This document shows positions 2,314-24,512 of a stretch of 24,872 nt of DNA, piece after piece. The stretch lies in IMG/VR virus record IMGVR_UViG_3300024348_000230, positions 1 through 24,872 of that record. One strand, given 5' to 3'. Made by a program: the position numbers and the translations under genes. Origin of the DNA: a virus. The notes beneath the pieces were generated by a model. The model saw only the letters and a program-made list of their open reading frames with translations, was not told the origin of the DNA and did not search any database. The stretch's first letter is position 1. Every line of letters begins with the position of its first letter.

Positions 2314-4245
2314 ATGTCAAGAATTATCGAAAACCCATATGAGAATTTTATTGCACTATCAAGATATGCAAGATGGTTGCAAGAAGATAACCGTCGTGAG
2401 ACATGGGGTGAAACAGTAGATAGATACTTTGACTTTATGCTTTCCCACCTTAAATCAATGGACTATGTTCCAGATTCTAAAACAGTAGAAGAGCTAAAGC
2501 AGGCTGTCTATGACAGAAGTGTCATGCCTTCTATGCGTTCAGTAATGACTGCAGGACCAGCTCTCGACAGAGACCATGTAGCAGGATACAACTGTTCATT
2601 TGTTCCAGTAGACAATCCAAGATCATTCGATGAAACTATGTATATCTTGATGTGTGGAACTGGTGTTGGCTTCTCGGTTGAATATAAATATGTCAACAAA
2701 CTTCCTGCCGTCCCAGAAACTTTTGAAAAGTCTACAACCGTTATTACAGTAGAGGATTCAAAACAAGGTTGGGCAAAGGCTTACCGTGAACTTCTTGCAC
2801 TTCTTTGGTCTGGTCAAGTTCCAGCAATTGATGTAAGTAAATTGCGTCCTGCAGGTGCACGTCTTAAGACAATGGGTGGCCGTTCATCTGGCCCACAACC
2901 ACTTATTAACCTTTTTGATTTTACAATTGCAAAGTTTAAATCAGCAGCTGGTCGTCAACTAAAGCCTATTGAAGCACATGATTTAATGTGTAAAATTGGA
3001 GAGATTGTTGTTGTCGGAGGAGTTCGTAGATCTGCAATGATTTCACTTTCAAACATTAACGACATTGAAATGGCTCAAGCAAAATCAGGAAACTGGTGGG
3101 AGAATAATTCGCAACGTGCATTATCAAACAACTCTGTTGCTTATTCTCGTAAACCAGAAATGGAACAATTTATAGCAGAATGGAAATCTCTTTATGATTC
3201 AAAATCGGGTGAACGTGGCATTTATAATGTGGCGGCGGCGCAAAAGCAAGCAGCTAAGTATGGTCGCAGAGATCCTGAAGTCCACTACGGAACAAATCCT
3301 TGCTCAGAAATTATTCTACGTCCTTATCAGTTTTGTAATCTTTCAGAAGTCGTATTACGTGAAAAGGATACACCTACAACTGTTGCAGAAAAAGTACGCC
3401 TTGCAACAATTCTTGGAACTTGGCAGTCAACGCTAACAGATTTTAAGTATTTGCGTAAGATTTGGAAAGACAACACTGAAGAAGAAAGACTTCTTGGAGT
3501 TTCACTTACAGGACAGTTTGGAAACAAATTTTTCTCTGGAAAAGAAAATCTAAAGAAGCTTGAAGACACTTTGGTATCTCTTCGTGAGTATGCAAGAGAA
3601 ATTAATAAAGAAGAGGCTGGGAAAATTGGGATTCCTGAGTCTGCAGCTATTACTTGTGTAAAGCCTTCTGGAACAGTATCTCAATTGGTCGGGGTATCTT
3701 CAGGAATGCATGCTTGGCATTCACCACATTATATTCGCACAGTTCGTGGCGATAAGAAAGATCCACTTTCAACATTCTTAAAAGAAGTTGGAATTCCAGT
3801 GGAAGATGATTTTATGAAACCAAATGACACTTATGTGTTTTCGTTTCCAGTAAAAGCACCAGAAGGTGCAATTACAAGAAATGATCTTACAGCAATTGAG
3901 CATTTGAATACTTGGCTTGTATACCAACGTGCTTGGTGTGAACACAAGCCTTCAATTACAGTTTCTGTTAAAGAAGACGAATGGATGGAAGTTGGTGCTT
4001 GGGTATACAAGCACTTTGATGAAGTATCTGGTATCTCATTCCTGCCTCATTCAGACCATTCCTATAAGCAAGCGCCTTATCAGGAAGTTACTGAAGAAGA
4101 GTACAACGATCTTGTTTCAAAGATGCCTCCTTCAATCCGATGGGAAGATTTGTCTTTCTATGAAACAGAAGACGGAACATCTGGAACACAAACACTTGCC
4201 TGTACTTCTGACGGAAACTGCGAAATTGTAGATATTTCCGCTTAG
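2314..4245 (+). CDS. nrdJ: Adenosylcobalamin-dependent (class II) ribonucleotide reductase
   Basis: A 643-residue protein that reduces ribonucleotides to deoxyribonucleotides using a B12-derived radical, supplying precursors for phage DNA synthesis. It matches the monomeric RTPR type known from Lactobacillus leichmannii. Visible landmarks are C94 (GYNCSF) and C341 (FCNLSE) as the substrate-reducing pair, N328/C330/E332 in TNPCSEIILRP as the radical active site, PSGTVSQLVG (451-460) as a phosphate-binding loop, and C630/C636 in ACTSDGNCEI as the C-terminal reshuttling cysteines. All key residues are intact. It is about 100 residues shorter than the 739-residue Lactobacillus enzyme. It needs no oxygen and no small subunit, and I see no nrdI, nrdB or thioredoxin gene beside it. 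It sits behind its own promoter and GGAGGAG ribosome site. Confidence 0.93.
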   Translation: MSRIIENPYENFIALSRYARWLQEDNRRETWGETVDRYFDFMLSHLKSMDYVPDSKTVEELKQAVYDRSVMPSMRSVMTAGPALDRDHVAGYNCSFVPVDNPRSFDETMYILMCGTGVGFSVEYKYVNKLPAVPETFEKSTTVITVEDSKQGWAKAYRELLALLWSGQVPAIDVSKLRPAGARLKTMGGRSSGPQPLINLFDFTIAKFKSAAGRQLKPIEAHDLMCKIGEIVVVGGVRRSAMISLSNINDIEMAQAKSGNWWENNSQRALSNNSVAYSRKPEMEQFIAEWKSLYDSKSGERGIYNVAAAQKQAAKYGRRDPEVHYGTNPCSEIILRPYQFCNLSEVVLREKDTPTTVAEKVRLATILGTWQSTLTDFKYLRKIWKDNTEEERLLGVSLTGQFGNKFFSGKENLKKLEDTLVSLREYAREINKEEAGKIGIPESAAITCVKPSGTVSQLVGVSSGMHAWHSPHYIRTVRGDKKDPLSTFLKEVGIPVEDDFMKPNDTYVFSFPVKAPEGAITRNDLTAIEHLNTWLVYQRAWCEHKPSITVSVKEDEWMEVGAWVYKHFDEVSGISFLPHSDHSYKQAPYQEVTEEEYNDLVSKMPPSIRWEDLSFYETEDGTSGTQTLACTSDGNCEIVDISA

Positions 4246-7228: not shown

Positions 7229-8715
7229 TGGCAATTAGAATTCAAATGAGAAGAGATACAGAGGCAAATTGGATTGCAAATAATCCAATTTTAAAGCCAG
7301 GAGAGATTGGTCTTGCATTAGATAAATTTAGATTTAAAGCTGGATACTCAGAAACTTCAAGATGGAATGATTGTGTTTACTTAAATGTTTATCCAGGAGA
7401 ATTAGTAGAGGCAGTACAAGATGCAATTGGAACATCTGTTAACCACTCAGACCATTCTCATATTACTGTAACATATAATGATGCAACAAATAAGTTTGTA
7501 TTTGGAACTGCCCCAGAAGTTGTACTATCTTCTGGTTTGACAGACACACTTGGTGACTATGTAGAATTTTCTTATTTTCAAGGAATATTAGATGAGCCAA
7601 ATGGAATACCTACCCTAGATTCAAATGGTTTAATAATGGATGCAGAAATTCCAGCAACAATAGCAAGAGTTGCTTCTCCAACATTTACTGGAACAGTTGG
7701 CGGAATTACAAAGTCAATGGTTGGTTTAAATAATGTTGACAATACATCAGACGCAGCCAAGCCAATATCAACAGCAACCCAGACAGCCCTTAATTTAAAA
7801 GCCCCTTTAGCAAATCCTTCTTTTACTGGAACAACAAGTACATCAAATCTTACGGTTTCAGGCAACCTTACAGTAACTGGATCAACAACAACACAATCAA
7901 CACAAAATCTTTCTGTTGCTAATCCACTTATTTATGTAGGAGAAAATAATCAAGCAAATATTATTGACGTAGGATTAGTCGGAAGCTTTAATAATGGAAC
8001 ATATCAACACACTGGCATTGCAAGAGACCATGAGGCAAACAAATGGAAGCTATTTAAAGGTGTTGCAGATGAACCATCAACAACAATTAATTGGACACAG
8101 GCTACCCTTGATGACCTTGCTGTTGGAGACTTAACAGCAGCAACAATATCTACAACAACATCAATTTCTTCTCCAACAATTACTTCATCTACACAATTAA
8201 ATGCAAATAACCTTACAGTAACTGGTACTTTAAATATTCCAGAAGAAAGTATTCAAAGTTCAGACTTACATTGGGAGCATTATGCTGCAGAAAGTAATTT
8301 GCCATCTGCGGCAGACAAACATGGCATGTTTGCACACGTTCATGGTACTGGTGCTGCTTATTATGCACATGCAGGCTCATGGTACAAGCTTGCTAAAGTA
8401 ACAGACATATCAGACAACAACTTAACTTCAATTGTTCAAGTTAATGCTTCATATACACCATCATTAATTGATGCGTTTAAATTAATTGAAATGTCAACTG
8501 GAACATTTACCCTTCCAAATGATTCTACTGTAGATTTTCCAGTAGGAACCTACATTGATATTCTTCAAACAACAACAAGTCAAATTACTATTGCTGGAAC
8601 AGGATTTACACCAGATTCTACACCAGGTTTAAAATTAAGAACTAGGTGGAGCAGTGCAACATGTTTAAAACGAGGCCCTAATTTGTGGGTAGTGTTTGGA
8701 GACCTAGTAGCATAA
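7228..8715 (+). CDS. Tail fibre protein with Mtd-type N-terminus and fibre repeats
   Basis: A 495-residue fibre. The N-terminus, IRIQMRRDTEANWIANNPIL followed by KPGEIGLALDKFRFKAG, matches the 'RRgT...W...NPvL..GE.G.e.dt.k.KiG' module that begins many phage fibres, including the major tropism determinant type. An HxH motif follows (H76-S-H78). The middle holds classic fibre repeats (SPTFTGTVGGITKSMVGLNN; DAAKPISTATQTALNLKAPL; ANPSFTG) and paired NLTVSGNLTVTGS strands. A His-rich stretch (KHGMFAHVHGTGAAYYAHAG) precedes a C-terminal beta domain ending LWVVFGDLVA. It is a likely long adsorption fibre subunit. The start uses the TAATG overlap, and its stop overlaps the next start in the same way. 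Confidence 0.8.
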   Translation: MAIRIQMRRDTEANWIANNPILKPGEIGLALDKFRFKAGYSETSRWNDCVYLNVYPGELVEAVQDAIGTSVNHSDHSHITVTYNDATNKFVFGTAPEVVLSSGLTDTLGDYVEFSYFQGILDEPNGIPTLDSNGLIMDAEIPATIARVASPTFTGTVGGITKSMVGLNNVDNTSDAAKPISTATQTALNLKAPLANPSFTGTTSTSNLTVSGNLTVTGSTTTQSTQNLSVANPLIYVGENNQANIIDVGLVGSFNNGTYQHTGIARDHEANKWKLFKGVADEPSTTINWTQATLDDLAVGDLTAATISTTTSISSPTITSSTQLNANNLTVTGTLNIPEESIQSSDLHWEHYAAESNLPSAADKHGMFAHVHGTGAAYYAHAGSWYKLAKVTDISDNNLTSIVQVNASYTPSLIDAFKLIEMSTGTFTLPNDSTVDFPVGTYIDILQTTTSQITIAGTGFTPDSTPGLKLRTRWSSATCLKRGPNLWVVFGDLVA

Positions 8716-9794
8716 TGAAAAAAACATCCAGAAAGTCCAGACTAACGTCTAGGACGTCTATTCCAAATTTAGTAGGATTAACAAGAGCTGAAGCAGAAAC
8801 TGCTTTATCTAATGCTGGCCTTAGATTTAAGACCACTAGCATTGTAACAAATTATTCTGCAGAAAATAACAAAGTTGCTTCTTTGCCAACGTATACTTCA
8901 GGACAAGTTATTCCTAGAGAAACAGAAGTTGAATTTGTTTACAAGTCCTATCAGGGAATTGCAGTACCAAATGTTTATGGTCTTTCTCAGGCAGCCGCTA
9001 TTGCAGCAATTACAGCTGCTGGATTAACTGCTGGAACAGTTTCTGGAACAACTGGGTCAGACAACTCATTGGATCAAAAAATTACAGGTCAAAGCGTAAC
9101 GGCTGGAAACTTGGTAGATGCACTTAGTACAATAAATATAACTTTGTATACATATGTTGCGCCATACTATAATCCTTATAGCAATCCTCCGCCATATGAT
9201 AATTATGGAAATTATGGAAATTATGGCAACTATGGCAACTATGACAACTACAACAATCCTCCACCACCCGCACCACCAGAAGTGCCACCCATTAATCTTC
9301 CTCCTATCAGTGGATGGAAAAGTCTAGGAGTGCACACTCTTGTCAGAACTCCAAACGGATTAGTTGCAGCAGGAAGCTTGCAAGTAGGGGATACTTTAGT
9401 TTCAGCAAACATTGAGGGTGTTCCTTATATGTCTAGCCCAGAAGCTAATCAAAGCATTTATAACTGGACTGAATCAGAACCAAATATTGAATATACAACA
9501 ACAACAATTGTGATGGTTCACAAAAAAATAGGAGATACAGTTGTTGCTATTAACGGAGATATATTTTCTCAATACCATTATATTCTAATAAAAAGAGATG
9601 GCCTTGCAAGATTTATTGCAACAGCAGATATAATTGACACTGATCAGATTTATAGCTATGCTTCAAACTCTTTTGAGCAGATAACAATGTTGCAAATGGT
9701 TCCAGTTTCTCATGAAATTGTTTCTATTGACTGTGAGCCATACGACATCTTTTTCACCCAAGAAATGCTTGTTCACGACTCAGTATCTATATAA
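8715..9794 (+). CDS. PASTA-PASTA-(NYG)n-Hint domain virion protein
   Basis: A 359-residue mosaic. Residues about 15-77 (IPNLVGLTRAEAETALSNAG) and 82-147 (VPNVYGLSQAAAIAAITAAG) are two PASTA domains, known to bind uncrosslinked peptidoglycan. Residues 150-200 are a Pro/Tyr/Asn linker with five NYG/NYD units. Residues about 203-359 look like a Hint (hedgehog/intein) domain: SLGVHTLVRTPNGLVAAGSL and VGDTLVS form block A, INGDIFSQYHYILI (279-292) forms block B with H288, and the end reads DIFFTQEMLVHDSVSI. Ser203 occupies the usual catalytic Cys1 position, and the final His354-Asp355-Ser356 replaces His-Asn-nucleophile. Self-cleavage is therefore possible but unproven. I chose ATG 8715 because it overlaps the previous stop as TAATG, like its neighbours. 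An earlier ATG at 8685 has no such support. Confidence 0.75.
   Translation: MKKTSRKSRLTSRTSIPNLVGLTRAEAETALSNAGLRFKTTSIVTNYSAENNKVASLPTYTSGQVIPRETEVEFVYKSYQGIAVPNVYGLSQAAAIAAITAAGLTAGTVSGTTGSDNSLDQKITGQSVTAGNLVDALSTINITLYTYVAPYYNPYSNPPPYDNYGNYGNYGNYGNYDNYNNPPPPAPPEVPPINLPPISGWKSLGVHTLVRTPNGLVAAGSLQVGDTLVSANIEGVPYMSSPEANQSIYNWTESEPNIEYTTTTIVMVHKKIGDTVVAINGDIFSQYHYILIKRDGLARFIATADIIDTDQIYSYASNSFEQITMLQMVPVSHEIVSIDCEPYDIFFTQEMLVHDSVSI
9201..9254 (+). repeat. Six 9-base tandem repeats coding for NYG-type units
   Basis: Units of AATTATGGA drift through AATTATGGC, AACTATGGC and AACTATGAC to AACTACAAC. They encode NYG four times, then NYD and NYN. They lie in the linker between the PASTA and Hint domains and read in frame. 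The step-wise change along the array suggests expansion by slippage, so linker length may vary between related phages. Confidence 0.8.
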
Positions 9795-9795
9795 A

Positions 9796-10290
9796 ATGTT
9801 ATCAAGTTGGCCAGAAGTATTAGACGGGTATTGGATGCACCTTGCTAAATTAGATAACCATTCTTCTATAAGCTACTGTGGATCACTTTATAAAAATGAT
9901 AAATACAAAAGTGGAACAATTATTGTTTCAAACTATATATTAAACGATTACCCAGATGTATATGCAACATTAGATAAAAACAATGAGCTGAATAGAGTTT
10001 ACACAAATCCAGCTTTAAGACCCTCCCACGTTTGGGAATGGTGGGGTGTAATAACTAAATTTTTGTTAAAGAATAATTTAAATTCAGATTTTCATGCGCC
10101 AAAGGTAAGAAATAGAACGGCTCAAGATGGGTACGTAAGATATCAAAAAAATATTAATAGCCCAGATAAATATAAAGTAGAAGAAATAACCCTGCTTCCA
10201 AATATTGAAGAGCCACCAAGAGACTTTATGTACCCAACAATATGGTACAATAAAAGAATAAAAGAGGTGTTAAAAAATGAGAATAATTAA
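9796..10290 (+). CDS. Unknown protein opening the oxygenase cassette (164 aa)
   Basis: A 164-residue soluble protein I do not recognise. The first half has alternating strands (SSISYCGSLYKNDKYKSGTI, then IIVSNYILN). The centre reads ELNRVYTNPALRPSHVWEWW followed by a hydrophobic helix (GVITKFLLKNN). A hydrophobic strand, 'NPxLR' and then a helix is faintly like motif A of GNAT acyltransferases, but the glycine-rich acetyl-CoA loop is missing, so this is only a remark. The C-terminus is basic. The start is ATG 9796, two bases after the previous stop (ending at 9794). An upstream in-frame ATG at 9712 would lie deep in the Hint domain and is less likely. The gene end overlaps the next start by 14 bases. 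Confidence 0.55.
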   Translation: MLSSWPEVLDGYWMHLAKLDNHSSISYCGSLYKNDKYKSGTIIVSNYILNDYPDVYATLDKNNELNRVYTNPALRPSHVWEWWGVITKFLLKNNLNSDFHAPKVRNRTAQDGYVRYQKNINSPDKYKVEEITLLPNIEEPPRDFMYPTIWYNKRIKEVLKNENN

Positions 10291-10810
10291 CTATTTAAAC
10301 GGCATATCTTATATTGAAAATGTTGTTGAGGGTATAGACCTAAATTCAATTTCTTATGAAAAAAAAGAACTTGTTTTAGGTCAAAATGAGATATACCATG
10401 CAGAATTTAATATTGGCAAAAATGATGAAAATTTAGTTTTAAAAACATTTTTTTATAAATCTCTTTTTAGCGCATTAAGCCTTTATTTTAAAAGCAATTC
10501 AATTGTAGAAAAAGTTAATGTGTGGACAAGAAACGAAGATCATTTTATACAATTACCAGGAACAGAAAACCCACAATTAAAAGAAAGATCTGGTAACTTA
10601 GTAGAAGGCGGATACACCGTATTGTATTTTTTAGATACAGTAACTAGCGGAGGAAATGTCAATATTCCAAGTCAAAATTTTTCTATTAATTTGCAGCAAA
10701 ACTGCATGATAGTGTTTCCTTCAGGACAAGATTATAAATATAATATTAATAAAATTGGAGAAGGCACAGAGAGAAAGTTTATAGAGATAGTTTTTGATGA
10801 ACGCATTTAA
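10277..10810 (+). CDS. Degenerate 2OG-oxygenase/cupin-like protein without metal ligands
   Basis: A 177-residue protein. Its C-terminal half (about 110-173) has the outline of a double-stranded beta helix of the 2-oxoglutarate/Fe(II) oxygenase type: GGYTVLYFLDTVTSGGNVNI, then a strand ending NCMIVFPSGQDYKYNI, then GTERKFIEIVF. These correspond to 'tvllYLnd...GGe..', 'G.lv.FPs...H.v' and 'G.Ry.i..w'. The HxD pair is absent, and the distal histidine is replaced in YKYNI. R166 could still match the 2OG-binding arginine. It is probably non-catalytic, for example a partner or structural copy of the two active-looking neighbours. It has an AGAGGTG ribosome site and overlaps the next gene by 14 bases. 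Confidence 0.5.
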   Translation: MRIINYLNGISYIENVVEGIDLNSISYEKKELVLGQNEIYHAEFNIGKNDENLVLKTFFYKSLFSALSLYFKSNSIVEKVNVWTRNEDHFIQLPGTENPQLKERSGNLVEGGYTVLYFLDTVTSGGNVNIPSQNFSINLQQNCMIVFPSGQDYKYNINKIGEGTERKFIEIVFDERI

Positions 10811-11342
10811 AATTAAAAACATTTTTGAAGAGTCATATTTCAATGAAATAAGAAATTATTTTGAAAGTCATTCTTTTTTAAATAATGCCGAATATGATTT
10901 CTATAATAGCAAGCGTATTGATTCCTTTGATGATCCAGTTTTAAAATCTATTTTAGAAAAATTACATGAGCCATCAAAAAAATGGTTTAATAATGAAAAT
11001 ATTGTTCCAACATATGCAATATTTTCTGAGTATTCTGGAAAACAAGCACATTTAAATCCTCACCGTGATTCAGGTCCCTGCACTTATACATTAGATATTG
11101 GGCTTTATCACAAAACTCCATGGCCCCTTATAATTGAAGGCGAAGAATATTCTTTTTTGGAAAATGAAGCAATAGGGTTTTATGCCAACGATCAAGATCA
11201 CTGGAAGCCAGAATTTCCAGATCCAGAAAATAATAAAGTTGGAATATTGCTTGTTCACTACGTTAATTCAGACCATGTATGGCTTACATTGCAACCAGAA
11301 GTTCAAAAATTAATAAGACAAAGAATTAAAACTATTTCATGA
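10797..11342 (+). CDS. 2-oxoglutarate/Fe(II)-dependent oxygenase-like protein
   Basis: A 181-residue protein with the metal-binding pattern of 2-oxoglutarate/Fe(II) oxygenases. H89 and D91 in LNPHRDSGPC form the HxD pair, and H135 in YANDQDHWKPEF is a candidate distal histidine. The strands around them (TYTLDIGLYHKTPWPLIIEG; SFLENEAIGFYAND; KVGILLVHYVN) give the expected beta-helix order. A basic residue for 2OG binding would be K147, which is less usual than Arg. Expected activity is hydroxylation or a related oxidation. The substrate is unknown. I chose ATG 10797 over the TTG codon just before it. Its stop overlaps the next start as ATGA, indicating coupled translation. Confidence 0.65.
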   Translation: MNAFKIKNIFEESYFNEIRNYFESHSFLNNAEYDFYNSKRIDSFDDPVLKSILEKLHEPSKKWFNNENIVPTYAIFSEYSGKQAHLNPHRDSGPCTYTLDIGLYHKTPWPLIIEGEEYSFLENEAIGFYANDQDHWKPEFPDPENNKVGILLVHYVNSDHVWLTLQPEVQKLIRQRIKTIS

Positions 11343-11884
11343 TAAAAGCAAACTGTAATGTTGATGGAGTTAAAGAAGCAATATTGTCTGTAAAAAATAG
11401 TACAGAAGAAATTTATTTTTTTAACTCTGGAGATAGAGCCGATCTTATAGGAGAATCTATTGTCTATTCTTCAACTCAGTTCAATGTTTTTGGTATATAC
11501 AATTCAAATATATTAAGCCTGTATAAAAATATTTTAGCCATTTTAAAAGAACAATGTTTAAAGAATGAAATAAATTTTAGCGGATCTGAATACTATATCT
11601 CTTCAGATTATTTTCAAGAATTTGTAAGCACTAGGGCCATATACGATTTTGGCGGAATTGGAATACCGTGCTTTAATGGCATAATTTCTTTACAAGAAAA
11701 AGAAATTGTTATATACTTAAACAACGAAGAAAAAAAGCTTAATTGCGGGGATATGCTGTTTTTTGAAGCGGGACAAGAAATAACATATAAAAATGAAAAA
11801 GTAGAGTGTATATACTTTAATATTGCCCCAAGATTTATGATTGAAAATCAATACCCCTTTAAATGGATACCTGTAGGAGCATAA
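11339..11884 (+). CDS. Cupin/2OG-oxygenase-fold relative, ligand residues missing
   Basis: A 181-residue AT-rich gene product. Its C-terminal part (about 110-165) again outlines a double-stranded beta helix: CFNGIISLQEKEIVIYLNNE, KKLNCGDMLFFEAGQEITY and VECIYFNIAPR, matching the 'G.lv.F..g..H...' turn of oxygenases and cupins. No HxD is present, and the usual histidine is replaced in QEITY. A catalytic Fe centre of the standard type is therefore unlikely. It ends with a short FKWIPVGA tail. The gene overlaps the preceding one by four bases, and the next gene begins directly after its stop. It may be an inactive partner in a multi-subunit assembly, or a binding protein. Family assignment is tentative. 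Confidence 0.45.
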   Translation: MIKANCNVDGVKEAILSVKNSTEEIYFFNSGDRADLIGESIVYSSTQFNVFGIYNSNILSLYKNILAILKEQCLKNEINFSGSEYYISSDYFQEFVSTRAIYDFGGIGIPCFNGIISLQEKEIVIYLNNEEKKLNCGDMLFFEAGQEITYKNEKVECIYFNIAPRFMIENQYPFKWIPVGA

Positions 11885-12520
11885 ATGGCACTAGAAGACG
11901 TTGTAGTTATATACAATTTTATTAATGAAGAAGAAAGACTAATGCTTTTGGATTACGAAAAAAATTTAACCAAGAATGATCTTTGGGAAAAGAGAAATTA
12001 CGCTGATCCACAAAATCAGTGGACAAATAGACACCTTTCAATTATACATTTGCTTACGCCAGAACTTGGATTTGGAACAGAGTACGACATTGTTATAGCC
12101 AAAAAGCTTTGGGAAATAGAAGGAAGAATTAGAAAACAAATTAAAGAATCTTGGAATTTAGATAAAGATATTTGGCCAGACTGCTTTAATCTAATTCGTT
12201 GGCCACACGGTCAAGCTCAGCCGCCTCATTCTGATTATGAAAATTTTTCAAGAGAACCACACGTTTGGAATTGGAGAGACATAGGGTGTGTTCTTTATTT
12301 AAACGATGAGTTTGAAGAGGGAGAAATACGGTTTCCCCAGTTTGACCGTGAAATAAAAATTAAAGCAGGCATGTTAGCATTTTTTCCAGGAGATATTCAT
12401 CATGCTCATGGAGTTAAGGAAGTAAAAAATGGTACTAGATATACTCTAAACACATTTTACACTTTTTCAGAAGAACATAAGTTTGAAGTAGATTTCAATA
12501 GAAAGTACGGTAATTGGTAA
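11885..12520 (+). CDS. Prolyl-4-hydroxylase-like 2OG/Fe(II) oxygenase
   Basis: The clearest oxygenase of the cassette, 211 residues. H115-x-D117 (PPHSDYENF), H175 (IHHAHGV) and R185 (NGTRYTLNTF) are placed as in prolyl 4-hydroxylase family enzymes: two metal ligands, the distal metal ligand and the 2OG carboxylate anchor. Between them come RDIGCVLYLNDEFEEGEIRF and IKAGMLAFFPGD, the diagnostic 'YLNd.feGGe..Fp' and 'G.lv.FpgD..H' strands. It should hydroxylate a substrate using oxygen and 2-oxoglutarate. Proline in a fibre protein is one candidate substrate, with a nucleic acid or small molecule as alternatives. The ATG follows the preceding stop directly. Its own stop overlaps the next ATG by one base. 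Confidence 0.85.
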   Translation: MALEDVVVIYNFINEEERLMLLDYEKNLTKNDLWEKRNYADPQNQWTNRHLSIIHLLTPELGFGTEYDIVIAKKLWEIEGRIRKQIKESWNLDKDIWPDCFNLIRWPHGQAQPPHSDYENFSREPHVWNWRDIGCVLYLNDEFEEGEIRFPQFDREIKIKAGMLAFFPGDIHHAHGVKEVKNGTRYTLNTFYTFSEEHKFEVDFNRKYGNW

Positions 12521-12912
12521 TGGCTCACGATATAAGAGTTGAAACAAAAAGGTGGCAAATAAGAAAAGTGGTGGACCTCGGCAATTTTTGCTTGAGAGTG
12601 AATACAATCATTAATGCTGCACAAAGGTATGAAACTGCCGTTTTTCAAACTGATGAGACTGGAAGAATGAGAGATCTAGGCTTTAAATACTATAAGAAAC
12701 ATGAGTCTATGCAAGAAGCAATAAATTTCAATAAGTATTTTTGTGAAACCTTAAAGCTACAAGATATCTCTGGGCTAGAAGAAATTGATATCTATGCTAA
12801 GCTTGACAAGGTTTTTGCTGATTTCATATACACTGGCGGACCAAGGACCTGGATGATGCCACCCAAAAATCCTCCAAATGTAGCGATTGGGCAAAAGCCA
12901 GAGGATATGTAG
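12520..12912 (+). CDS. Unknown protein closing the oxygenase cassette (130 aa)
   Basis: A 130-residue soluble protein I do not recognise. It is mixed alpha/beta: basic strands (RVETKRWQIRKVVDLGNF), a helix (VNTIINAAQR), a strand (YETAVFQTDETG), then two helices with KYYKKHESMQEAINFNKYF. A proline-rich tail (MMPPKNPPNVAIGQKPEDM) may bind a partner. It starts at ATG 12520 overlapping the oxygenase stop, so it is probably made together with that enzyme. It is the last gene before the second fibre module, whose promoter lies in the 29-base gap that follows. It could be an accessory to the oxygenases or a virion protein. Confidence 0.6.
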   Translation: MAHDIRVETKRWQIRKVVDLGNFCLRVNTIINAAQRYETAVFQTDETGRMRDLGFKYYKKHESMQEAINFNKYFCETLKLQDISGLEEIDIYAKLDKVFADFIYTGGPRTWMMPPKNPPNVAIGQKPEDM

Positions 12913-14903: not shown

Positions 14904-15533
14904 ATGTCACTTAAAAGATGGGACGGCTCTTCTTGGGTTGTCGTAGCAGGTTCTAGACCAGGTCCACAAGGACCTACAGGTGCACAGGGCCCCGCAGGAA
15001 CACCCGCAACTGTTTCTATTGGTACAGTAAATACTACAAACGCAGGCACAAATGCAACTATAACAAATTCTGGATCAGCGTCTGCAGCAATTTTTAACTT
15101 TAACATTCCTAGAGGTGCAACTGGACAACAGGGAAACCAAGGAACTCAAGGTGTTGAGGGAACAAGAGGAAGTAAAATTTTTACTGGAGTCAATGCTCCA
15201 ACTTCTTTAAGTCCAGCACCTTCAGGTCTTTTAGGAAATGATCAATATTTAGCAACATCAACTGGAGCCTGGTACATTTATGATGCATCAGGGTCTGGGG
15301 CTTGGTCCTTACAGGGTAACATCAAGGGCCCACAAGGTTTGAAGGGTGATACAGGCGCCACTGGCCCAACTGGTCCTTCAGGTAACGTAGTAGCAAATGA
15401 ACTCTATGCAAAGACAGACGCTTTGCAAGTGGACGCACTACTTAATCTTGGAATATACTATCCAAAGTATACTTCAACATTAACACAATCACAGTTAAAC
15501 AGTAGATTCGCTGCAAGCAGTTTCTTATTTTAG
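14904..15533 (+). CDS. Collagen-like fibre protein
   Basis: A 209-residue protein with three collagen-type Gly-X-Y runs: residues 20-34 (GPQGPTGAQGPAGTP), 71-89 (GATGQQGNQGTQGVEGTRG) and 142-160 (GPQGLKGDTGATGPTGPSG). Between them lie a small beta segment (ATVSIGTVNTTNAGTNATI) and a YLATSTGAWYIYDASG fibre domain, with a short helical end (NELYAKTDALQVDALLNLG). Such proteins form trimeric triple-helical fibre shafts. The start MSLKRWDGSSWVVVAG echoes the 'dG..W..v' fold of neighbouring fibres. Y positions are mostly Thr, Gln, Lys or Ser, with proline mainly in X, so classical Y-proline hydroxylation would have few targets. AAGGAG precedes the ATG. Confidence 0.85.
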   Translation: MSLKRWDGSSWVVVAGSRPGPQGPTGAQGPAGTPATVSIGTVNTTNAGTNATITNSGSASAAIFNFNIPRGATGQQGNQGTQGVEGTRGSKIFTGVNAPTSLSPAPSGLLGNDQYLATSTGAWYIYDASGSGAWSLQGNIKGPQGLKGDTGATGPTGPSGNVVANELYAKTDALQVDALLNLGIYYPKYTSTLTQSQLNSRFAASSFLF

Positions 15534-22847: not shown

Positions 22848-24512
22848 ATGTTTAGTGTGCCATTAAACCCAAAGTTAAATGAAAAACAGACAATTGAGTT
22901 TATACAGTTCCTAAAGGAATACAATAAATATATTTATGATTTTTATTTTACTTGCAGAATCCCGCCATTCACACAAGATGCTATGGGTGATATTTTTGAG
23001 GGCCAAGAAGAAGATTATTCTTATTTAATTAATCTAGCTCTACACATTCAGTCTGAGACTGGAATTACAGCATCTGCAGTATTTAATAATACAGAAGTGA
23101 GGCCATCACAACAAAACTTAGATTTGTTTATTGAAAGTTTTGCACCACTTTATGATTTAGGAATTAGATCGGCAACAATACCACACACTCATTGGATGGC
23201 TACTGGACAAATAAAAAAAGCCTTTCCAGAATTGTTTGTTAAGAACACAATCCTTAGAAATGTTTCAGAGCCTAGAGACATAGAAAAGCTAGCTAAGGCT
23301 GGCTTTGACTATATAAACTTAGATCGTGATCTAATGAGAGACCACGAAAAGCTAAAAAGATTTAATAAAGCCAAGCAACAATTTGGCGTAAAGCTGTCTT
23401 TGTTGGCAAATGAAGGCTGCTACGGCGGCTGCATAATGATGGACGAACACTATCAATTTAATAATACCCGCACAGATGGGCCTCAATATTTTAATGATCC
23501 TATAAGCAGAGTGTCCTGCCCAAAGTGGGACCATGAAGATTTTGCTGTATCATTAAAAACAGCAAATTTCCCACCATGGCGTGAAGACTGGCAAGAGTTT
23601 TTAGACGACCTGGGAGTTGATGTTATTAAGATGCATGGGCGGGAATCCCATACAAGGCTAAAAGAAACCATGGATATAATCAGGAGGTATGCCAACAATG
23701 AAGAAATTCTATTTGACAGCTTTAATGATTTTATTGAAGAAACTAATATGGTTGACAAACCGATTACCATCTGGCGCAATAAGATCAAAAATTGTAAATT
23801 TGATTGCTGGGATTGTGGTTATTGTGACAAGATAATGGCTGCCAAATATGGGAACCATATAAATCCAAAAGTTGCTATGGTGGCAAAAGAATTAGTAGAT
23901 TCTGTAAATAATCCAATTGAAATTAATATTCCAGGACTTACATCAACAAGAATACAGTCTTTAATAAATGGACTTGCTAAGACTTCCTCAAAATACCTTG
24001 AGATTGGGTCCTACCAAGGCGCTACAGCCGCTTCTGCATTAAGTGGCAATAATCTAGATGCATACTTTGTTGACATGTGGCAGGAAGCCCCACAAGCGGT
24101 AAGAGAAGGATGGAAAACCCCAAACACAAATACCATCCAAGAGTTTAAAAATAATATTGCTCCATATAGAGGAAACAATAGGGTTTTTATATCTAACTCA
24201 GATATGTTTAAGGTTAATCTATCAAGCATTTCAAATGTTGATTTATTCTTTTATGACGGACCGCATGATTTTGAGTCCACAAAGAATGCAGTTAAATATT
24301 ATTCTCCTACATTTGCAAATCAATCTATTCTAATATTTGATGATGCAAATTGGACGGAAGTAGTTCAGGGTGCTTACAAAGGCATAATTGAATCTGGATT
24401 AAAAATATTGTATAGTAAGAAAATACTGAATTCCTTAGAGTCGGAAAAAGACTGGTGGAATGGCATTTATATAGTTGTAGTAGAAAAGGAAAACAATGGA
24501 AATAACAACTAG
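22848..24512 (+). CDS. U32 peptidase-like domain fused to a class I methyltransferase domain
   Basis: A 554-residue two-domain protein. The N-terminal part (about 1-335) resembles U32-family TIM-barrel proteins (RlhA, TrhP, UbiU/UbiV), many of which carry a 4Fe-4S cluster and take part in hydroxylation rather than proteolysis. Landmarks are DYINLDRDLMRDHEKL (154-169), LLANEGCYGGCIMMDEHYQF (185-204) with C191/C195, C224, and a CKFDCWDCGYC cluster (316-326). The C-terminal part (about 378-545) is a Rossmann SAM-methyltransferase fold of the Methyltransf_24 kind. EIGSYQGATAAS (385-396) is motif I, AYFVDMW (405-411) is motif II, and DLFFYDGPHDFESTKNAVKY (465-484) holds the D/H pair. The substrate is unknown: tRNA, a glycan or a small molecule are possible. 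AGGAAA precedes the ATG. Its end overlaps the next gene by 17 bases. Confidence 0.7.
   Translation: MFSVPLNPKLNEKQTIEFIQFLKEYNKYIYDFYFTCRIPPFTQDAMGDIFEGQEEDYSYLINLALHIQSETGITASAVFNNTEVRPSQQNLDLFIESFAPLYDLGIRSATIPHTHWMATGQIKKAFPELFVKNTILRNVSEPRDIEKLAKAGFDYINLDRDLMRDHEKLKRFNKAKQQFGVKLSLLANEGCYGGCIMMDEHYQFNNTRTDGPQYFNDPISRVSCPKWDHEDFAVSLKTANFPPWREDWQEFLDDLGVDVIKMHGRESHTRLKETMDIIRRYANNEEILFDSFNDFIEETNMVDKPITIWRNKIKNCKFDCWDCGYCDKIMAAKYGNHINPKVAMVAKELVDSVNNPIEINIPGLTSTRIQSLINGLAKTSSKYLEIGSYQGATAASALSGNNLDAYFVDMWQEAPQAVREGWKTPNTNTIQEFKNNIAPYRGNNRVFISNSDMFKVNLSSISNVDLFFYDGPHDFESTKNAVKYYSPTFANQSILIFDDANWTEVVQGAYKGIIESGLKILYSKKILNSLESEKDWWNGIYIVVVEKENNGNNN

Follow-up and report, generated by a model that had tools for sequence, protein, structure and literature searches.

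The window analysed here is IMG/VR record IMGVR_UViG_3300024348_000230, a 24,872-nt stretch of viral DNA, and our subject is a cassette of six consecutive genes at 9796-12912 together with the tail-module gene that precedes it. Genes and products are named below by their first coordinate. All six open reading frames lie on the + strand (9796-10290, 10277-10810, 10797-11342, 11339-11884, 11885-12520 and 12520-12912, with alternative TTG starts at 10794 for the third and 12514 for the sixth). A first-pass annotation, made from the letters of the window, had described them as AT-rich, overlapping or abutting, and wedged between two fibre modules. The overlaps are indeed 14, 14, 4, 0 and 1 (or 7) bases, and the low GC content is clear in five of the six genes (0.28-0.34, against 0.36-0.44 in the surrounding fibre genes). 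Fibre genes do flank the cassette, but the immediate upstream neighbour, overlooked at that stage, is a protein combining PASTA domains, a tandem repeat and a Hint-like domain.

Four of the six products are of the double-stranded beta-helix (DSBH) type, two with metal ligands and two without, a division already proposed in the first-pass annotation and now upheld by motifs and by AlphaFold2 models compared with Foldseek. The 11885 product (11885-12520) is the sole cassette product to reach a Pfam cut-off (PF13640, 2.4e-11) and, by its DSBH match and its HxD...H...R motif, is a predicted 2-oxoglutarate (2OG)-Fe(II) oxygenase. Its triad (H115, D117, H175) and the basic 2OG anchor R185 are invariant among window-lineage orthologues. 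Profiles of this type find their best matches in prolyl 3- and 4-hydroxylases (8k0e, 7.8e-11; 5hv0, 1.8e-9), and the nearest annotated sequence relatives are the cyanophage 2OG-Fe(II) oxygenases phrog_61, phrog_2297 and phrog_3531. The 10797 product (10797-11342) is 2OG-Fe(II)-oxygenase-like, with a triad of H89, D91 and H135 that is invariant in the window lineage and kept in 28 of 36 homologues, including every complete window-lineage member. A Pfam search with it returned no match; phrog_2954 matches at 4.5e-8, and its profile aligns weakly with alignment A4 (PHRD against HSD). Among the protein families matching 2OG-type oxygenases here, phrog_2954, phrog_3531, phrog_2297 and phrog_274 are named ferrochelatase, DNA endonuclease or endonuclease V, which look like transferred misannotations.

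The other two DSBH proteins were modelled from five orthologues (10277) and 14 sequences (11339), and the models were searched against the PDB and a viral library. For 10277 (10277-10810; predicted local distance difference test (pLDDT) 73.6, predicted template modelling score (pTM) 0.76), the listed PDB matches are all 2OG oxygenases, mostly prolyl hydroxylases (exclusively so among the top ones), led by 5c5t, the viral collagen prolyl hydroxylase (vCPH) of PBCV-1 (E 6e-6, template modelling (TM) score 0.59). Its profile also matches A9, a 2OG family from larger arrays described below (P 3.7e-6), and an iterative search seeded with it pulls in the 2OG family in round two. Metal ligands are absent in the window, in all window-lineage orthologues and in the orthologue at locus L114. 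On this model 10277 is predicted to have a 2OG-oxygenase fold without metal ligands, and hence it is not filed as an oxygenase.

The 11339 product (11339-11884; pLDDT 78, pTM 0.78) is a predicted ligand-less cupin/DSBH protein. In the PDB its model finds cupins, with low TM scores (about 0.3 by query length); its matches in the viral library include phage proteins that are uncharacterised, with TM up to 0.65, and numerous 2OG oxygenases. Every window-lineage orthologue lacks the metal ligands, with YDFGG in the window itself; HxH...GHPH...R is kept only in the homologues of loci L123, L129, L132, L133, L140, L143, L146-148 and L151. The homologues of L123, L129, L132, L140, L143 and L146-148 read WHEH/FHDH...GHPH...PRI where the window reads YDF...GQ...EKV. 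These ligand-bearing homologues match no Pfam 2OG family, and it is the motif that marks them as putative active oxygenases. Structure prediction thus gave related folds for the two ligand-less products, one prolyl-hydroxylase-like and one a cupin-like barrel, and the idea that 11339 has an unrelated fold was rejected on the models and the ligand-bearing homologues. Kinship of a ligand-less member with ligand-bearing proteins, in line with the first-pass suggestion of a duplicated and diverged set, is also supported: 11339 is ligand-less in the window, and homologues such as those of L148 and L129 bear ligands (alignment A12, profile E 2.3e-13). A tblastn search across 50,697 records found no annotated phage relative of 10277 or 11339.

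The two outer genes do not encode DSBH proteins. The 9796 product (9796-10290, alignment A8) is weakly GNAT-like: across three GNAT models the best E is 0.0076, reached by Acetyltransf_7 in 2 of 13 family members, and Acetyltransf_1 matches 1 of 13 at 0.008. The acetyl-CoA motif RxxGxA is intact in a relative at locus L030 (YRGKGVA) and degenerate in the window (LRPSHVW). The 130-aa product of 12520 (12520-12912, or from the TTG at 12514) occurs in the window lineage only; its orthologues are 65-92% identical (alignment A6), and it has no significant family match.

The cassette is conserved well beyond this contig. The same six genes stand in the same order in IMG/VR contigs of 106, 112, 33.6 and 40.5 kb, at 49-97% identity, and in others; at least four phage lineages share the arrangement. 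In a sister lineage (L112-L117, L141 and L155) the set is GNAT-10277-10797-11339-2OG. The ratio of nonsynonymous to synonymous substitution (dN/dS) runs from 0.03 to 0.52 across the six genes, without stops. Against the closest relative it is 0.03-0.05 for the ligand-bearing 10797 and 11885 and 0.14-0.20 for the ligand-less 10277 and 11339. Purifying selection acts on every gene of the six, more loosely on the ligand-less ones than on the ligand-bearing ones. Random cargo, against which the first-pass annotation had argued, and a contig artefact were rejected on these grounds; the gene order recurs in independent contigs and is not unique to this one.

Directly upstream, at 8685-9794 on the + strand, lies a tail-module protein with two PASTA domains (1.4e-14), a linker of tandem repeats rich in Tyr and Pro (GNYGNYGNY...PPPPAPP) and, at the C-terminus, a Hint-like domain, and its homologues occupy the same position in all related loci. 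The low-complexity linker, NPYSNPPPYDNYGNYGNYGNYGNYDNYNNPPPPAPPEVPPINLPP (9156-9317), comes just before the Hint domain. It contains a Tandem Repeats Finder array at 9204-9250 (period 9, 5.2 copies), and other lineages carry their own repeats at the same site. The Hint-like domain itself (9318-9791) was not called by the Pfam search; the family profile matches the solved intein 9hth (2.9e-5) and the bacterial intein-like domain 2lwy (1.4e-3). A Ser occupies the nucleophile position (K-S-L-G-V-H-T in the window; Ser1 is aligned in 57 of 58 Hint domains) and the block-B His is conserved. Splicing inteins end in His-Asn followed by Cys, Ser or Thr. That signature is missing here, and the domain was rejected as a splicing intein: splicing is not expected because the C-terminal Asn is missing in nearly all members, with HD-S in place of HN-C in the window and FD in the PPxFF lineages. 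Judged from these residues, N-terminal cleavage or transfer is possible at most.

How general this arrangement is was assessed by searching IMG/VR with the Hint domain as sole query, which gave 80 loci, 65 of them with at least 5 kb downstream. Linkage was counted where at least one of five cassette families lies right behind the Hint gene, and it holds in 64 of these 65. Conversely, in those loci of the 11339 family that were examined one by one (window relatives and L030-L041), a Hint gene lies upstream wherever the contig is long enough. Distant 11339 relatives sit in larger arrays (GNAT, 11339, 2OG, DUF6065, phrog_7084, four more 2OGs and a degenerate DSBH), and the gene preceding the array, wherever the contig reaches, encodes a tail-module protein with PASTA or Fn3 domains, a tandem repeat and a C-terminal Hint-like domain. 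Cassettes of other lineages also hold DUF6065-type proteins. The first-pass annotation had raised the possibility of a hetero-oligomeric hydroxylase made of active and ligand-less copies. The larger arrays have one ligand-less 11339-type protein beside five to seven ligand-bearing enzymes, and simple one-to-one pairing is therefore not a general rule.

The linker before the Hint domain is repetitive in 71 of the 80 loci (score of at least 0.30, with the 95th percentile of control windows at about 0.30), and the repeat unit is lineage-specific: (PPGFFA)n, (PFFP)n, (FGA)n, (HGYGGF)n and (VIIAEP)n, among others. The largest cassettes accompany (PPxFFx)n, with seven DSBH genes, five of them with intact triads, plus one or two of DUF6065 type; PFFPPFFP repeats accompany similar cassettes with six or seven intact oxygenases. 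Where the linker is not repetitive (L121, L122, L124, L128 and L144), GNAT and ligand-less 11339/10797 homologues are all that is left, and there is no active oxygenase. Two variants deserve mention. At L123, L132, L140, L143 and L146-L148, His/Tyr/Gly/Phe repeats (HGYGGFYHGF) are followed by a 248-aa protein, two phrog_7084-like proteins and the ligand-bearing 11339 homologue. At L089, the locus of the (PPGFFG)n protein also holds, upstream, a second Hint protein, whose nucleophile is Cys and whose repeats are (NTDPPVVV)n. In the halovirus neighbourhood inspected, phrog_7084 lies near thymidylate synthase and DNA polymerase, with no oxygenase annotated there.

An oxygenase block placed right behind a repeat-Hint tail protein suggests that these aquatic relatives of Streptomyces phages chemically modify their own tail. 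The module, as observed, is a tail protein ending in a variable tandem repeat and a Hint domain, followed by a cassette of modification type (a GNAT-like protein, both kinds of DSBH protein and, elsewhere, DUF6065-type proteins). The explanation that we favour, tentatively and with somewhat less than even confidence, is that the two ligand-bearing oxygenases modify the repeat of the adjacent tail protein and that the ligand-less copies are retained as partners. With O2, Fe(II) and 2-oxoglutarate, 10797 and 11885 would hydroxylate residues of the repeat (candidates are Pro and the aromatic residues or Asn) before or during virion assembly. The ligand-less 10277 and 11339 and the GNAT-like protein would hold the substrate or assist assembly, the Hint domain may afterwards cleave or tether the repeat segment, and the virion may benefit. 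The 8685 product is the proposed substrate by virtue of its neighbourhood. We favour this explanation because the linkage is nearly complete, because most linkers are repetitive with lineage-specific units, because the largest cassettes go with (PPxFFx)n and PFFPPFFP, and because lineages with non-repetitive linkers are without an active oxygenase. The matches of 11885 profiles to prolyl 3- and 4-hydroxylases, and of the 10277 model to a viral collagen prolyl hydroxylase, point the same way. The ligand-less copies, the suggested partners, remain under purifying selection.

Several observations weigh against this explanation. Lineages with PPADPP or YNPPP repeats (L126, L134-136 and L145) have repeats and no active oxygenase; 2OG and 2OG-DUF6065 genes resembling those of the cassettes are also present at other sites of the same genomes, away from any Hint gene; and some of the linkage could reflect synteny across the tail module in general. 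The substrate cannot be read from the enzyme family, and the support is computational. Co-variation was analysed in 22 clusters with eight tests, using independent contrasts computed on a tree of the Hint domains. In the raw data, a higher repeat score (rho 0.64) and a higher percentage of Phe go with more intact oxygenases; after contrasts, repeat score against active oxygenases gives r -0.02. The sole nominal signal of the eight tests is that between the percentage of Phe and active oxygenases plus DUF6065 (r 0.43, p 0.014). Co-variation of repeats and enzymes was thus rejected as proof, the strong raw correlation being lost under contrasts. The association is real as linkage; co-evolution is not established.

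In a structural alternative, the cassette proteins, and chiefly those without ligands, would serve the repeat-Hint fibre as chaperones or be minor proteins of the virion, any oxygenase activity being incidental or no longer present. The cassette does sit inside the fibre module, the GNAT-like motif is degenerate in the window, and the 11339 family is the commonest cassette member (59 of 65 loci), with some lineages keeping only GNAT and ligand-less 11339. Set against this are the triads of 11885 and 10797, invariant in the window lineage, two genes which also have the lowest dN/dS of the cassette, and the five to seven intact enzymes of the big arrays; we consider the structural alternative unlikely. 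Another alternative is auxiliary metabolism, with oxygenases altering host 2-oxoglutarate or another small metabolite; against it, the cassette keeps its place behind one tail gene even in very divergent phages. Such enzymes are common in cyanophages, where they are usually interpreted as auxiliary metabolic genes and have been proposed to modulate 2OG (PMC3037559). The cassette, however, has several paralogues with ligand-less partners and no metabolic pathway genes, and we give this account little credence.

The fibre genes offer a further candidate substrate, the collagen-like (GXY) fibre protein at 14904-15533 on the + strand (GPQGPTGAQGPAG...GPQGLKGDTGATGPTGPSG). Its Pro-containing GXY repeats lie 2 kb downstream of a cassette with P4H-like enzymes, and GXY runs are also present in its orthologue from the 106-kb relative. 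In the 109-kb array-rich phage (L034/G003), however, the pattern used finds no GXY protein, even though PPG occurs within the (PPGFFA)n repeat of this phage. By that pattern collagen-like GXY was rejected as a general substrate, and we regard it as improbable that this fibre is what the cassette modifies instead of the repeat-Hint protein.

The 106-kb (G001) and 109-kb (G003) phages are mutually syntenic, and the DnaE of the former is 57-58% identical to those of Stanwilliamsviridae-type Streptomyces phages (Samisti12, Wakanda and BillNye). Samisti12 shares the order transglycosylase(-)-glycosyltransferase-ribonucleotide reductase (RNR)-...-portal, but is without the fibre/Hint/oxygenase module between RNR and portal. 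From this kinship, in DnaE and gene order, the host is probably an actinobacterium. The window Hint domain found no Hint relative in the phage collection, and the Hint and 11339 profiles had no match in cellular genome contigs. The glycosyltransferase (1227-2225 in the window) brings in another possibility, that the enzymes act, with it as partner, on glycans or sugar nucleotides decorating the fibres or the host surface. These genomes encode glycosyltransferase, halogenase and methyltransferase genes, and many DSBH/cupin enzymes use sugars as substrates. The soil relative Samisti12, however, has the glycosyltransferase without the cassette, and the nearest structural matches are peptidyl-prolyl hydroxylases; a glycan target seems to us distinctly unlikely.

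Other genes of these phages are recorded for completeness. The RNR-like protein at 2314-4245 (PF02867, with a B12-dependent insertion-domain match) lies in a phage of about 38% GC, and over part of its gene the DNA is 77% identical to that of Streptomyces phage Mandalore. At 22848-24512, a 554-aa protein fuses a C-terminal Methyltransf_24 domain (8.9e-11) to an N-terminal part of about 340 aa with a Cys cluster (CKFDCWDCGYC). The 106-kb sister phage encodes a flavin-dependent tryptophan halogenase (L069:4340-5923; PF04820, 6e-104) with a signal-peptide-like protein just upstream. Two 2OG genes of G003 lie outside the tail module, one near a protein resembling the array's DUF6065 member (L074, 89919-91763) and one adjoining a Pro/Glu-rich protein of secreted type (L075, 106504-109340).

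Already known are prolyl hydroxylases that a virus encodes singly (PBCV-1) and 2OG oxygenases scattered among cyanophages. PBCV-1 vCPH (PDB 5c5t/5c5u) is likewise a virus-encoded 2OG prolyl hydroxylase, the top structural match of the 10277 model, and 11885 belongs to a P4H-like family; but vCPH is a lone algal-virus enzyme, whereas here a bacteriophage cassette with ligand-less copies lies behind a repeat-Hint tail gene. The cyanophage oxygenases belong to the same superfamily, several per genome, but in the sole region inspected (ACG-2014f) their neighbours are metabolic genes, and they do not follow a Hint tail gene. Jumbo phages have Hint virion proteins (Dickeya AD1 gp108 and Yersinia fHe-Yen9-02), and in the AD1 tail region a low-complexity collagen-like GXY segment is N-terminal to a C-terminal Hint domain. 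AD1 gp108 differs in its Cys nucleophile and C-terminal HN, and the part of its neighbourhood that was read has no annotated oxygenase; this canonical Hint protein (L156:4966-7037) adjoins a second collagen-like tail protein. Clusters for ribosomally synthesised and post-translationally modified peptides (RiPPs), with their core repeats and tailoring oxygenases, resemble the module in that enzymes of tailoring type and a possible self-cleaving domain accompany a ribosomally made protein with a variable repeat. Here, by contrast, a tail-module protein carries the repeat, genes for an exporter or a maturation protease were not seen, and the modification is a proposed one. The first-pass annotation knew of no phage system of this make-up, and none was found in the literature searched: no Hint-repeat tail protein with an oxygenase cassette is described there, in a search that excluded subscription journals and preprints.

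A broader version of the tail-modification explanation can be stated, which we regard as doubtful: a general phage strategy in which fast-evolving tail repeats before a Hint domain would be re-tailored by co-evolving oxygenases and DUF6065/GNAT-type proteins, with ligand-less copies as obligate partners, a counterpart of collagen or RiPP maturation. Of the 'auxiliary' genes of aquatic phages that lack an explanation, 2OG oxygenases are among the most frequent. For one group of these oxygenases, a constant neighbour whose sequence is repetitive and specific to the lineage supplies a concrete candidate substrate, and the question becomes testable. If the explanation is true, phages would hydroxylate their own tail proteins post-translationally, and ligand-less oxygenase copies would be functional partners rather than products of decay.

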